Below are positions 24 to 64,000 of a stretch of 64,000 nucleotides of DNA, one piece after another. Position 1 is the first letter of the stretch. Every line of letters starts with the position of its first letter. Below the pieces are notes generated by a model. The model saw only the letters and a program-made list of their open reading frames with translations. It was not told the DNA's origin and ran no database searches. The translations under genes and the position numbers were made by a program. The DNA is from Olsenella profusa (GTDB taxonomy: Bacteria; Actinomycetota; Coriobacteriia; Coriobacteriales; Atopobiaceae): NCBI RefSeq assembly GCF_016900315.1, contig NZ_JACSNQ010000001.1, positions 1 through 64,000 of the forward strand, read 5' to 3'.

Positions 24-36
24 GGTTCTTCTCGCC
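24..36 (-). repeat. GGCGAGAAGRAC motif copy
   Basis: Exact reverse-strand copy of GGCGAGAAGAACC in the short intergenic edge upstream of the corA-like gene. It belongs to the dispersed family described in the findings. Confidence 0.8.
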
Positions 37-174
37 TGACCCCCGTCTGCTCCCTGCGACGCCCCCCGTGTAAGGATTTGACAAGTCCGCGAACTTCCCG
101 CCCCGGGACGCGCCCCCCATGCGATAACGTAATGACGCATATGGGACCGCGAGACGCGCAAGGGACGGTGGAAC

Positions 175-1149
175 ATGATCGAGTGCCTGCTGACCGGGAC
201 AAACGGAACCATGGAGAGAGTTGACGCCCCGTGTCCGGGCTGTTGGGTAAACGTCGTGGCCCCCACCGAGGAGGAGCGCTCGCGCCTTGAGACCGAGGTC
301 GGCGTGCTGCCGGAGTTCATGCGCTCGGCGCTCGACGAGGAGGAGACCTCGCGCATCGACTACGACGAGGACGCGCGCCAGACCTTCGTCATCGTGGACT
401 ACCCGATGGTGGACGAGGACGGCGCCACCGTGCGCGGCTCGCTGCCCTTGCAGTACGACACGATGCCGCTCACCATGGTGTTCCTCCCCGAGAAGAGCAT
501 GTTCGTGACCATCTCGATCTTCGAGAACCCCGTGGTCGGCGACTTCGCCGGCGGGCGCGTCCGCAACGTCGACACGCGCTACCGCACGCGCTTCCTGCTC
601 CAGCTCCTTCTGCACATCAGCCAGCTCTACCTCGTCTACCTGCGGCGCATTGACCGCCTCTCGTCGAGCGTGGAGGCAAAGCTGCACGCCTCGGTGCGAA
701 ACGAGGAGCTCATCAAGATGCTCAACTTGGAGAAGTCGCTCGTGTACTTCTCCACCTCGCTCAAGGGCGACGAGGTCACCCTCAACAAGATCGCCCAGGG
801 CCGCATCATCCCGCTCTACGAGGAGGACCAGGACCTGCTCGAGGACGTGCTCGTCGAGATCCACCAGGCCATCGAGATGGCCAACATCTACTCAAACACG
901 CTCTCCGGCACCATGGACGCCTTCGCGAGCATCATCTCCAACAACCTCAACATCGTGATGAAGGTGCTCTCGGTCATCACGATCGTCATGGCCATCCCCA
1001 ACATCGTCTTCGGCTTCTACGGCATGAACGTGGCGCTGCCCCTCGAGGGCGCCCCGCTCTTTGACAACTGGGTGTTCCCGCTGCTTCTGGCCGCGGTTGC
1101 GTGCCTGGTGGCCGCCTGGATCTTCAAGCGCAAGGGCATGTGGCACTAA
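175..1149 (+). CDS. corA: CorA-family magnesium/divalent cation channel
   Basis: Predicted pentameric Mg2+ channel of the cytoplasmic membrane, 324 residues, a normal length for the CorA family. A long soluble N-terminal part with a helical stretch near residues 140-250 is followed by two hydrophobic segments at about 262-281 and 300-317. The family signature Gly-Met-Asn is present as YGMN at residues 282-285, directly after the first segment. The ATG follows an AGGGACGG ribosome site. It stands alone, separated from queA by 99 bp that carry one motif copy. Family assignment is firm. Which metal it carries cannot be read from sequence. Confidence 0.9.
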   Translation: MIECLLTGTNGTMERVDAPCPGCWVNVVAPTEEERSRLETEVGVLPEFMRSALDEEETSRIDYDEDARQTFVIVDYPMVDEDGATVRGSLPLQYDTMPLTMVFLPEKSMFVTISIFENPVVGDFAGGRVRNVDTRYRTRFLLQLLLHISQLYLVYLRRIDRLSSSVEAKLHASVRNEELIKMLNLEKSLVYFSTSLKGDEVTLNKIAQGRIIPLYEEDQDLLEDVLVEIHQAIEMANIYSNTLSGTMDAFASIISNNLNIVMKVLSVITIVMAIPNIVFGFYGMNVALPLEGAPLFDNWVFPLLLAAVACLVAAWIFKRKGMWH

Positions 1150-1153
1150 ATCT

Positions 1154-1166
1154 GGCGAGAAGAACC
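1154..1166 (+). repeat. GGCGAGAAGRAC motif copy
   Basis: Exact GGCGAGAAGAACC four bases after the corA-like stop codon, between corA and queA. Confidence 0.8.
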
Positions 1167-1248
1167 TCGAGATAGTCGGCCTGCCGGGCCGCCCGCCGGC
1201 GGCCTGCCGCGCGCGTGCTATCGTAGTGCGCCGGACAGAGGAGGACCC

Positions 1249-2433
1249 ATGCGTACCGACGACTTTGACTACCCGCTTCCCGACGAGCTCATCGCCCAGG
1301 CTCCGGCCGAGCCGCGCGACTCCTGCCGGCTGCTCGTGCTGCACCGCGAGGACGGCCGCGTGGAGCACCGCCGCTTCACCGACGTCCTCGACTACCTCGA
1401 GCCCGGCGACCTGCTCGTGGCCAACCAGACCCGCGTCATGCCGGCGCGCCTCGTGGGGCGCAAGCGCGGGACCGGCGGTGTGTGCGAGACGCTGTTGCTC
1501 AAGCGGCGCGAGGACGTGGACCCGCTCGGCGGCGTGTGGGAGTGCCTCGTCAACCCGGGCAAGCGCCTGCGCCAGCCGGGCATCGTGATCGAGTACCGCG
1601 CCGGCGGCGCGCACGCGCCGGAGTCGGCGCCGGTGGTGCTGACCGGTGAGATCCTGGACTTCGTCGAGGACAGCAAGGGCGGCCGCCTCGTGCGCTTCTC
1701 GCCGCAGGGCGCGGGTGCCGACGGGCGTCCCCGCACGCTCGACGAGGCCATCCACGCGGCGGGCCACGTGCCCCTGCCGCCATACATCACCTCCTACGAG
1801 GGCGACTCGGAGAAGTACCAGACCGTCTACGCCATGCACGAGGAGCACTCCGCGGCGGCGCCCACGGCCGGGCTCCACTTCACGCCCGAGCTCATCGAGC
1901 GGATTCGCGAGAAGGGCGTGGGCTGGGCGACCGTGGAGCTGGAGGTGGGCATCGACACCTTCCGCCTGGTCACCGAGGACGACCCCACCCAGCACGTCAT
2001 GCACACCGAGCGCTACCACGTGCCGCAGGCGGTCGTCGATGCCGTCCACGCCACCAAGGCGGCCGGGCACCGCGTGATCGCGGTGGGCACCACCTCAGTC
2101 CGCTCGCTGGAGAGCGCGTGGGAGGCCGGCGCCGCGCCGAGCGAGCCGCCCGTGACCGCGCGTCGCTTCGAGGGCGCGCCCGACTCGGCGGCCGTCGCGG
2201 GCTCGGGCGACATCGTGGCGCGCGAGAACGCCACGACCAACCTCTACCTCATGCCGGGCTCTACGTTCCACGTGGTGGACGCGCTGATCACCAACTTCCA
2301 CGTGCCGCGCTCCACGCTCATGATGCTCGTCTCGGCCTTCGCCACGCGCGAGCAGATCATGGCCGCCTACCAGGCGGCAATCGACGAGCGCTACCGCTTC
2401 CTCAGCTTCGGCGACGCGATGCTCATTGAGTAG
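1249..2433 (+). CDS. queA: S-adenosylmethionine:tRNA ribosyltransferase-isomerase
   Basis: QueA transfers and rearranges the ribosyl part of S-adenosylmethionine onto preQ1 in the anticodon of Tyr, His, Asn and Asp tRNAs, giving epoxyqueuosine. The 394-residue protein shows the family's N-terminal DFDYPLPDELIAQ and the conserved VANQTRVMPARL, the HSAAAPTAGLHFT block near residue 200, and TNLYLMPG and NFHVPRSTLMMLVSAF near the end. It is somewhat longer than the usual 340-360 residues, mainly through internal insertions. tgt, the enzyme one step earlier, lies 2 kb downstream, so most of the late queuosine pathway is local. Confidence 0.95.
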   Translation: MRTDDFDYPLPDELIAQAPAEPRDSCRLLVLHREDGRVEHRRFTDVLDYLEPGDLLVANQTRVMPARLVGRKRGTGGVCETLLLKRREDVDPLGGVWECLVNPGKRLRQPGIVIEYRAGGAHAPESAPVVLTGEILDFVEDSKGGRLVRFSPQGAGADGRPRTLDEAIHAAGHVPLPPYITSYEGDSEKYQTVYAMHEEHSAAAPTAGLHFTPELIERIREKGVGWATVELEVGIDTFRLVTEDDPTQHVMHTERYHVPQAVVDAVHATKAAGHRVIAVGTTSVRSLESAWEAGAAPSEPPVTARRFEGAPDSAAVAGSGDIVARENATTNLYLMPGSTFHVVDALITNFHVPRSTLMMLVSAFATREQIMAAYQAAIDERYRFLSFGDAMLIE

Positions 2434-2484
2434 GCCTGCCGCCGCCCGGCGACCGCCGGCCCCGGCGCGCGGGCCCCGCCGCCC

Positions 2485-62432: not shown

Positions 62433-62447
62433 GCGTACCCACAAGAC

Positions 62448-62486
62448 GTCCTTCTCGCCCGCGAGACGGCGTCCGGCGAGAAGGAC
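62448..62486. repeat. Inverted pair of motif copies between divergent promoters
   Basis: GTCCTTCTCGCC (62448-62459) and GGCGAGAAGGAC (62475-62486) with a 15-nt loop. It lies upstream of both the tRNA-Pro promoter and gdhA, so it cannot be a terminator of either. Confidence 0.85.
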
Positions 62487-62568
62487 CGCCCGTGAACACC
62501 GTCGTGTGTACAGAAGGTTTCGCGCGAGGTTCGATGGCGTTACGTATGAGGCACTGGCTCTGCACGGC

Positions 62569-62585
62569 TACGTTTCAAAAACGTA
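62569..62585. promoter_or_regulatory. Possible operator upstream of gdhA
   Basis: Perfect palindrome TACGTTT-CAA-AAACGTA about 55 bp before gdhA. The stretch is AT-rich and is followed by TCCTTTTCAGC. A related TACGTTTC block precedes ilvD (24314-24327). Confidence 0.45.
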
Positions 62586-62638
62586 TCCTTTTCAGCAAAG
62601 TAAGCCGGCCCACGGACCGTCCACAGATTGGAGCGCAC

Positions 62639-63994
62639 ATGACGTATTCCGACAAGGTCATCGCCGAGCTCGAGGCGCGCTACCCCGAGCAGACCGAGTT
62701 CATCCAGGCGGCCAAGGAGGTTCTCGAGACCTTGCAGCCCGCCCTTGACGCGCACCCCGAGTACGAGGAGGCGAGCCTGCTCGAGCGCCTCGTGGAGCCC
62801 GAGCGCGTGGTGATGTTCCGCGTGCCGTGGGTGGACGACGCCGGCAAGGTGCAGGTCAACCGTGGCTACCGCGTGGAGTTCAACTCCGCGATCGGCCCCT
62901 ACAAGGGCGGCCTGCGCTTCAACCCCACGGTGACCGTGGGCATGCTCAAGTTCCTCGGCTTCGAGCAGATCTTCAAGAACGCCCTCACGACGCTGCCGAT
63001 GGGCGGCGGCAAGGGCGGCTCGGACTTCGACCCCAAGGGCAAGTCCAACCGCGAGGTCATGGCCTTCTGCCAGTCCTTCATGACCGAGCTCTGCCGCCAC
63101 ATCGGCCCCGACACCGACGTCCCCGCCGGCGACCTGGGCGTGGGCGGCCGTGAGATCGGCTACATGTTCGGCCAGTACAAGCGCATCCGCAACGAGTGGA
63201 GCGGCGTGCTCACCGGCAAGGGCCTCACCTACGGCGGCTCGCTCGCCCGCACCGAGGCCACCGGCTACGGCCTCGTCTACTTCGTCGACGAGTACCTCAA
63301 GAGCCAGGGCGACTCCTTCGAGGGCAAGACCGTCGTGGTGCACGGCTCCGGCAACGTGGCCATCTACGCCATCCAGAAGGTCGCGCAGCTTGGCGGCAAG
63401 ACTATCGCCTGCTCCGACACCAAGGGCTGGGTCGAGGACCCCGACGGCATCGACTACCAGGTGCTCGAGCACATCTACGACAAGAAGCGCTCCGGCCACG
63501 ACCAGGGCGTGAGCCTGGCCATGTACGTCGACGAGCGCCCGAACGCCACCTGGCACGCCGAGGACGGCCGCGGCGTCTGGCAGCTCCCCTGCGACATCGC
63601 GCTGCCCTGCGCCCGCGAGAACACCCTCGAGCTTGCCGACGCCCAGGCGCTCGTGGAGCACGGCTGCAAGGTCGTGGGCGAGGGAGCCAACATGCCCACC
63701 ATGCCCGACGCCACCACCTACCTCATGGAGCACGGCGTGGCCTTCATGCCCGGCAAGGCGGCCAACGCCGGCGGCGTGCTCGTGTCCGGCCTCGAGATGA
63801 GCCAGAACGCCGAGCACCTCTCCTGGACCTTCGAGGAGGTCGACGGCAAGCTCGAGAGCCTCATGCGCGGCATGTTCCACAACGTGAACGACACCGCCCG
63901 TGAGTACGGCCACGAGGGCAACTTCGTGATGGGCGCCAACATCGCCGGCTTCCTGAAGGTCGCCGATGCCATGATGGCCCAGGGCGTCTGCTAG
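62639..63994 (+). CDS. gdhA: Glutamate dehydrogenase
   Basis: Hexameric, probably NADP-dependent enzyme joining ammonium to 2-oxoglutarate. The 451 residues show [13 protein letters not shown], the catalytic lysine block [18 protein letters not shown] (about 122-139), [14 protein letters not shown], the dinucleotide site [16 protein letters not shown] and [11 protein letters not shown]. The ATG at 62639 is preferred (weak GGAG ribosome site). The in-frame extension runs through the operator-like palindrome. A motif copy begins right after the stop (GGCGAGA) and is cut by the window end. Confidence 0.96.
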
Positions 63995-64000
63995 GCGAGA

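Follow-up and report, generated by a model that had tools for sequence, protein, structure and literature searches.

The 12-bp word GGCGAGAAGRAC, which is dispersed over a 64,000-nucleotide stretch of the Olsenella profusa genome (this whole stretch is called the window below), may be the Thermophilibacter dialect of a DNA uptake sequence present in part of the Atopobiaceae, where it would mark the cell's own DNA for preferred uptake. From the sequence comparisons described here, we put the probability of this reading at about 0.6. Most testable sequence predictions favour a word of the uptake type, namely its excess, lack of polarity, intergenic bias, bare flanks, dialects, turnover and effect on peptides. 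The route of uptake would probably be a Tad pilus rather than type IV pili. An initial annotation of the window had already read the word as an uptake sequence; these predictions speak for that reading, while the hairpin hallmark, the type IV pilus route and the competence-gene link that it brought in found no support. Contig 11 of the genome, which has 2,072,646 bases in 56 contigs, begins with the window. Its neighbourhood was named via RelA relatives, and the genus was assigned as Thermophilibacter (Atopobiaceae).

The excess of the word is real and genome-wide. A recount of the window gave the same 27 exact matches as first reported, 16 on the plus and 11 on the minus strand, where 0.04 were expected from 100 dinucleotide shuffles, none of which held more than 1. 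Allowing up to one mismatch raises the number to 55 copies against 1.0 expected, the 28 one-mismatch copies comparing with the at least ten noted before. The positions first given were exact for all 16 plus copies and for 4 of the 11 minus copies; the other seven minus starts were one base low (24 becomes 25, 4441 becomes 4442, 12421 becomes 12422, 18885 becomes 18886, 27923 becomes 27924, 51834 becomes 51835, and 55164 becomes 55165). A count over the whole genome, proposed in the initial annotation as a check, found 855 copies (413 forward, 442 reverse) against 0 and 1 for the pattern read backwards as a control, so the word is frequent well outside the window. In a 464-kb sample of this genome, composed of the window and 20 further stretches and used for the own-genome results below, there are 211 copies, compared with 11.4 expected under an order-5 Markov model built from the sample itself, and all 21 stretches carry the word. 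The most frequent one-base variants have C (31 copies) or T (17) at position 2, where 7.8 and 3.1 are expected, and G (53) or T (23) at position 11, with expectations of 12.4 and 9.3; each of the remaining ones has 0 to 11 copies. Chance as the source of the word is ruled out by the shuffle and Markov expectations.

The word is also non-polar, as had been proposed from its near-equal orientation in the window. Polarity was followed on one complete chromosome, that of T. provencensis (NZ_LT671417.1, reached through L014; G140), which has 489 copies. Twenty stretches spread over this single species' chromosome hold 71 copies, which fall 39 to 32 whether they are sorted by GC skew or by the strand of most genes. 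Polarity reaches 58% for the best half-chromosome split (p 0.72 for random orientation), and a true polarity of 75% came out this low in 0.08% of simulations; the strand-bias check therefore reveals no polarity of the Chi kind.

Copies lie mostly between genes. With genes called by an in-house codon-usage caller, not a published tool, and with rough start codons, 129 of the 211 copies (61%) are intergenic, 81 are coding and 1 lies across a gene edge, while coding sequence makes up 84.7% of the bases and intergenic sequence 15.3%. This extends to the larger sample the bias first described for the window, where 19 copies had been placed in the roughly 15% that is intergenic; here, 20 copies fall outside called protein genes, which leave 15.8% of the window uncovered, and 7 fall within them, tRNA genes being left out of the gene set for the split. 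Per kb, convergent gaps hold about 3.5 copies, codirectional gaps 1.7, divergent gaps 1.4 and genes 0.21. Of the 73 copies in codirectional gaps, 72 could be binned by their place in the gap; 23 fall in the first fifth past the stop and 6 in the last fifth ahead of the start. The flanks of 26 window copies are unconserved save for a weak C-T at the 3' side.

Among the Atopobiaceae, the word is concentrated in two genera, here numbered as in our family search. Whole-genome counts were obtained for 49 of 70 loci of RelA relatives and are identical to those of the g1 (Thermophilibacter) genomes in that search; they include 333 copies in T. mediterraneus, 358 in T. gallinarum and 638 in Olsenella sp. 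An188, besides T. provencensis. Of the 31 g1 genomes, 30 have 227-855 copies, and G088 has only 40. The three genomes of g27 hold 484, 291 and 305 copies, and the remaining 106 genomes of the family 0-144. In a search of the order covering 94 genomes in 9 other families, 93 genomes have 15 copies or fewer; G260 (family f10, genus g82) is the sole one with a raised count (44).

Related genera carry dialects around a CGAGAA core, resembling the dialects of the DNA uptake sequence (DUS) of the Neisseriaceae. To find dialects, words were counted de novo in 15 family genomes, each sampled over 80 kb. In G028 (g16) the word found was CTGCCGAGAARCCC; the two g16 genomes contain TGCCGAGAARCC 242 and 253 times, the other 138 genomes of the family 0-29 times, and of GGCGAGAAGRAC the same two hold 1 and 3 copies. 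The intergenic logos share the frame G-[G/C]-CGAGAA-R-N-N-C, which reads GG-CGAGAA-GRAC in g1, GGG-CGAGAA-GNRC in g27, TGG-CGAGAA-GNNC in g15 (the same, less clearly, in g28) and TGC-CGAGAA-RCCC in g16. Copies of TGGCGAGAAGNNC number 133-210 in five g15 genomes, 122-160 in eight g34 genomes, 210 in G037, 186 and 80 in g28, 102 in G001, 80 in G138, and 5 and 8 in g16; the 60-283 copies in g1 partly overlap the local word. In 11 of the 15 sampled genomes, G036, G052, G018 and G022 among them, an intergenic excess of CGAGAA over genes was absent, and the distribution of the trait in the family is patchy.

The low-copy genome G088 likely lost the word rather than never having had it. Over 520 kb it holds 7 exact copies of GGCGAGAAGRAC, a single one intergenic, and a search of the same 520 kb for a substitute found no strong dispersed word family. 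In a ComEC tree, g34, g20 and g1 form one grouping, in which G088 branches at the base of g1, while g27 lies elsewhere and the g16 row sits on a long branch. This placement and the 60 copies of TGGCGAGAAGNNC in G088 suggest the loss. As only 6 of the 18 inner branches are well supported, and the branch of G028 is long, the history of the dialects is tentative.

Within genes, the word has left its mark on proteins. The sense frame GGC GAG AAG RAC accounts for 51 of the 81 coding copies. The 20 codons next to a called start hold 18 copies and the 20 next to a stop hold 10, compared with 5.8 expected at either end. Shuffling synonymous codons within genes (100 times) gave an expectation of 34.8 sense and 0.8 antisense copies, compared with 53 and 28 seen. 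The DNA word rather than the protein is what accumulates, and the same excess counters a coding artefact as the origin of the word. The peptide GEK[ND] occurs 52 times in the 130,654 residues of the sample, against 1.9 by composition (about 27-fold) and 3 for the reversed control. It is found 23 times in T. provencensis (1.6 expected) and 11 times in G056 of genus g27 (0.7 expected), compared with 4 times in G088 (2.2 expected) and 0 or 1 times in G036, G120, G028, G052 and G060 (0.4-0.5 expected). The antisense peptide VLLA is mildly raised, with 37 occurrences to 20 of ALLV in the sample and 18 to 19 in G088.

Individual sites turn over between species. The first 24 kb of the window was aligned with 20 RelA loci, 17 of them confirmed as belonging to the genus by whole-genome count and three by RelA similarity alone; 22 pairs were dropped because of an insertion within the word, and sites were picked as exact in one species, which biases against conservation. 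The word is kept in 34 of 111 intergenic pairs, where flank divergence predicts 17%, and in 92 of 348 coding pairs, where it predicts 25%. In the coding pairs the mismatch per base is 0.224 in the word and 0.148 in the flanks. Site conservation is weaker than per-site function would predict. Since copies turn over nearly as fast as their surroundings and their density is held, a genome-wide preference fits better than a duty at each site.

An uptake apparatus is plausible from gene content. A comEC gene is present in 137 of 140 family genomes. In the genome studied here the end of comEA, comEC and a putative holA, as we presume the gene beside comEC to be, follow one another at the edge of contig 5, and the same order recurs in seven further com loci, those of G088 and G036 included; comEA of T. 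provencensis encodes SLBB and HHH domains. The Tad/Flp locus (L217, at G000:C22) has tadA, tadB and tadC over the Pfam cut-off, along with a ParA-type tadZ, a SAF-domain cpaB, a tadE below the cut-off (0.0024) and an flp recognised by motif, whereas a tadG-like gene and one tadE/F were assigned by position alone. It is syntenic in G088, G111, G140, G087 and G036. A T2SSE-family ATPase is encoded in all 31 genus genomes, and dprA in 30 of 31 (own copy C11:206589), with only 3 of those 30 over the curated cut-off. As no family genome of the 140 reached the curated cut-off for PilB, matches were judged by E-value and length. No full-length PilB-type match was found among the 31 genus genomes, 14 of which have weak partial matches (best E 8e-29) and the other 17 none; 26 family genomes (g3, g7, g12, g13, g18, g24, g30, g31 and g35) do have strong matches (E below 1e-100) that are full-length or long. 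A look for conserved competence genes, suggested in the initial annotation, thus turned up comEA and comEC, a Tad/Flp in place of a type IV pilus, and no link to the presence of the word.

Two further results of the gene survey may be noted. A second locus that reads as type IV filament-like, with a PilT-like ATPase, a GspF-like protein and small pilin-like proteins (L222, L231 and L221 inspected), has its ATPase in 6 of the 31 genus genomes (G085, G087, G096, G103, G104 and G111) and in g16 (G028). The terminase model PF03354, used to look for prophage regions in which the word could be counted, matched none of the 31 genus genomes.

If the word is an uptake sequence, a surface protein of the uptake machinery, possibly a Tad pilin-like protein or the outer part of ComEA, would bind it, and fragments carrying it would enter preferentially. 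Recombination of the entered fragments would then let copies accumulate by molecular drive, and this bias together with mutation would spread them wherever they are tolerated, mostly between genes, where they would do least harm. Dialects may arise as receptor and word drift together, and loss of the preference, as seems to have happened in G088, would let copies decay. A fuller proposal, for which we consider the odds even, is that part of the Atopobiaceae has an independently evolved form of self-DNA recognition with genus dialects, acting through Tad/Flp, ComEA/ComEC and a putative receptor, and that over a whole genus it has rewritten intergenic DNA as well as protein sequence (GEK[ND]).

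Several points weigh against an uptake sequence. The apparatus, though plausible, is no guide to which genomes carry the word: G036 and G088, both without it, have comEA, comEC and the tad genes just as the carriers do, and G088 keeps dprA; a competence-gene correlate of the word was sought in the family and none was found. PilB even runs opposite to the word, as the 26 genomes with strong matches hold at most 54 copies of GGCGAGAAGRAC each. ComEA and ComEC can also persist without active transformation. No receptor for the word has been identified, no search for a receptor or a ComP homologue having been made, and no report of transformation in Coriobacteriia was found in open-licence papers. 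In the intergenic pairs the mismatch per base is 0.184 in the word and 0.204 in the flanks (p 0.052), a weak gain in conservation. The 80-kb sample of G120 (g34) lacks an intergenic CGAGAA excess, although the genome has 133 copies of TGGCGAGAAGNNC. Finally, the copy number is below the 943-5918 given for DUS.

As far as our searches of the open-licence literature go, the word appears to be unreported. Exact words used as literature strings gave, among the matches listed, papers on unrelated organisms or topics, in which we took the strings for primers. The searches yielded no uptake sequence for Coriobacteriia, as the initial annotation had supposed, or for other Actinobacteria. To our knowledge, established uptake sequences are known only from Pasteurellaceae and Neisseriaceae. 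A statement in PMC7811141 likewise assigns uptake sequences to these two Gram-negative families, and one in PMC10526031 has none reported for mycobacterial species. If the uptake reading is true, the word would add an independent example from Gram-positive bacteria with another kind of pilus, and would allow comparative tests of what makes uptake words evolve (safety, kin recognition, or receptor bias with molecular drive), the dialects and the low-copy G088 being ready contrasts for finding the receptor. These anaerobes, in which genetic manipulation is hard, would then be naturally transformable, and a tag for DNA would have been identified.

The alternative that survives best, while still unlikely, is that the word is the site of an abundant chromosome-organising or nucleoid-associated protein and spread between genes because the chromosome would need widespread, orientation-free sites. 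The lack of polarity, the use of both strands, the occurrence in every own-genome stretch sampled and a conserved core with drifting ends would all fit such a site. However, the near-absence of the word from G088 and of an intergenic CGAGAA excess from most of the 15 samples means that genomes of the same family do without it, which makes an essential organiser unlikely. Neighbouring copies less than 60 bp apart are more frequent than expected (23 against about 5), but beyond that the spacing is near Poisson, and single sites turn over. The rewriting of protein sequence also exceeds what an architectural site would need.

It is less probable again that the word is the relic of a former uptake preference, with the receptor or competence now silent and the copies decaying. 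G088, with its 40 copies genome-wide, suggests that such loss occurs, and the failure of the competence genes to separate carriers from non-carriers would be in keeping with it. Long decay would, however, flatten the distribution of variants, and in the genome studied here, the only one in which variants were counted, the exact word has 211 copies to 53 for the largest one-base variant; the sharp dialect difference between two genera also speaks against a relic.

Slightly below this in probability is a signal for another step of DNA transfer or recombination, either Chi-like for an end-resection enzyme or read by an FtsK/TraB-type translocase in conjugation. Chi and the FtsK-orienting polar sequences (KOPS) are short, frequent and taxon-specific, and a genome-wide, taxon-specific distribution is common to such signals, as it is to GGCGAGAAGRAC. 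They are, however, polar with replication, whereas the 71 copies in T. provencensis are not, and a 12-bp word with strong intergenic bias is longer than, and placed unlike, Chi or the TraB octamers.

A role in transcription termination, as stems or another RNA element, is very improbable. Convergent gaps are indeed the densest, with 29 copies in 8.4 kb. A reverse complement of 8 bases lies within 60 nt at 31 of 125 intergenic copies compared with 93 of 1250 control positions, and the window has three tight inverted pairs. Yet codirectional copies show no strand preference (36 on the genes' strand, 37 opposite), 16 of 43 divergent gaps, where terminators are not needed, carry a copy, 81 of the 211 copies are within genes, and close neighbours are direct (11) about as often as inverted (12). 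The pairing as hairpins that had been taken as a hallmark is therefore not a general rule, the figures of 31 of 125 and 93 of 1250 leaving a minority of intergenic copies in stem-capable places.

Least probable of all is a piece of a repeated mobile element, either a miniature inverted-repeat transposable element (MITE) or a repetitive extragenic palindrome (REP), since 11 of the 211 copies lie within 120 bp of the GTACGTAC repeat but the other 200 lie away from it and the flanks of 26 window copies are unconserved, so the copies are not remnants of one longer mobile element, a possibility raised at the outset.

The copies of the word in the window are listed in Table 1 with the arrays of a second over-represented word, GGGTACGTACAC. 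This word has 30 copies in the 464 kb against 0.07 expected, with a single window copy at 54721. It often stands in arrays spaced by 21-22 bp that face each other across a short centre, like transposon ends with repeated transposase sites, and in four of the centres two copies of GGCGAGAAGRAC lie 45 bp from each other. Other over-represented words were met in T. provencensis (AATTGGGGACTG and TGACAAAGGTGA, in L099-L118) and in the relatives G041 (GCCGAGTGGCAG, in one stretch), G122 (CGGAAAGGAAAA), G022 (ACGCTTCGGTCA) and G056 (CACTATCTGACA), the loci holding the relatives' words being L151-L154, L183-L186, L187-L190 and L171-L174; some of these words may be local arrays or small elements. The window also encodes, at 5893-9276 (+), a RecJ (DHH, DHHA1, RecJ_OB) fused with a DEAD/Helicase_C helicase domain in a single open frame.

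Table 1. Exact copies of the word in the window (window positions) and arrays of GGGTACGTACAC (locus positions)
Feature	Position	Strand	Context
GGCGAGAAGAAC copy	25..36	-	precedes first called gene
GGCGAGAAGAAC copy	1154..1165	+	intergenic; called stop codon 4 bp before
GGCGAGAAGAAC copy	4442..4453	-	intergenic
GGCGAGAAGAAC copy	12422..12433	-	intergenic, adjoins tRNA-Leu
GGCGAGAAGAAC copy	12586..12597	+	intergenic, adjoins tRNA-Leu
GGCGAGAAGAAC copy	13059..13070	+	intergenic
GGCGAGAAGAAC copy	15486..15497	+	intergenic
GGCGAGAAGAAC copy	18785..18796	+	3' end of called gene, codons GGC GAG AAG AAC
GGCGAGAAGAAC copy	18810..18821	+	convergent intergenic
GGCGAGAAGAAC copy	18886..18897	-	convergent intergenic
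GGCGAGAAGAAC copy	27672..27683	+	intergenic
GGCGAGAAGGAC copy	27924..27935	-	intergenic, follows tRNA-Ala
GGCGAGAAGGAC copy	29845..29856	+	called gene, near start, sense frame
GGCGAGAAGGAC copy	34732..34743	+	inverted pair, arm 1 (partner 34756..34767)
GGCGAGAAGGAC copy	34756..34767	-	inverted pair, arm 2 (partner 34732..34743)
GGCGAGAAGGAC copy	43820..43831	+	coding, sense frame
GGCGAGAAGAAC copy	45627..45638	+	convergent intergenic
GGCGAGAAGGAC copy	49314..49325	-	called gene, antisense
GGCGAGAAGGAC copy	51835..51846	-	inverted pair, arm 1 (partner 51852..51863), convergent intergenic
GGCGAGAAGGAC copy	51852..51863	+	inverted pair, arm 2 (partner 51835..51846)
GGCGAGAAGGAC copy	53052..53063	+	divergent intergenic
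GGCGAGAAGAAC copy	55165..55176	-	coding, antisense
GGCGAGAAGAAC copy	55892..55903	-	intergenic
GGCGAGAAGAAC copy	57385..57396	+	coding, sense frame
GGCGAGAAGAAC copy	59260..59271	+	called gene, last codons
GGCGAGAAGGAC copy	62448..62459	-	inverted pair, arm 1 (partner 62475..62486)
GGCGAGAAGGAC copy	62475..62486	+	inverted pair, arm 2 (partner 62448..62459)
GGGTACGTACAC array	L079:15645-15791		
GGGTACGTACAC array	L081:12374-12502		
GGGTACGTACAC array	L085:12732-12877		
GGGTACGTACAC array	L087:6005-6258		
GGGTACGTACAC array	L088:8616-8782		
GGGTACGTACAC array	L088:11206-11352		
GGGTACGTACAC array	L096:2169-2336		

Set beside known systems, the word differs from Chi and KOPS in being non-polar (best split 58%), from intrinsic terminators in having no gene-strand preference and direct pairs as frequent as inverted ones, and from REP and MITE elements in having no longer conserved unit around the 26 window copies. 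The uptake signal sequence (USS) of the Pasteurellaceae is non-polar and abundant, lies in and between genes, shapes peptides through its coding copies, and serves type IV-pilus-based uptake in Gram-negative bacteria. GGCGAGAAGRAC is likewise non-polar, abundant and peptide-shaping, here as GEK[ND], but it is a different word and its copies are mostly intergenic. The DUS of the Neisseriaceae occurs in both orientations with some inverted pairs, as does the word here. In the account of the Neisseriaceae drawn from PMC3630211, there are eight DUS dialects with 943-5918 copies around an invariant core, 5'-CTG-3', and five genomes of the family are without an obvious DUS. Shared with that account are a short word in many hundreds of copies, taxon dialects about an invariant core and family members without the word. 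In contrast, the core here is CGAGAA and not CTG, the family is Gram-positive and actinobacterial, the copies are fewer, and the genus has a Tad/Flp pilus and no full-length PilB-type match. With neither the type IV pilus nor the CTG core found, the word does not belong to the Neisseriaceae system, though it would work like one. For the pilus, the closer comparison is with the actinobacterium Micrococcus luteus, whose transformation needs tad clusters of this layout and ComEC (PMC4322843, PMC6370729). Neither 'uptake sequence' nor 'sequence specific' appears as a term in the main text of PMC4322843. What the two have in common, by homology, is the layout of tadA-B-C, flp, tadE/F and tadG together with comEA and comEC.

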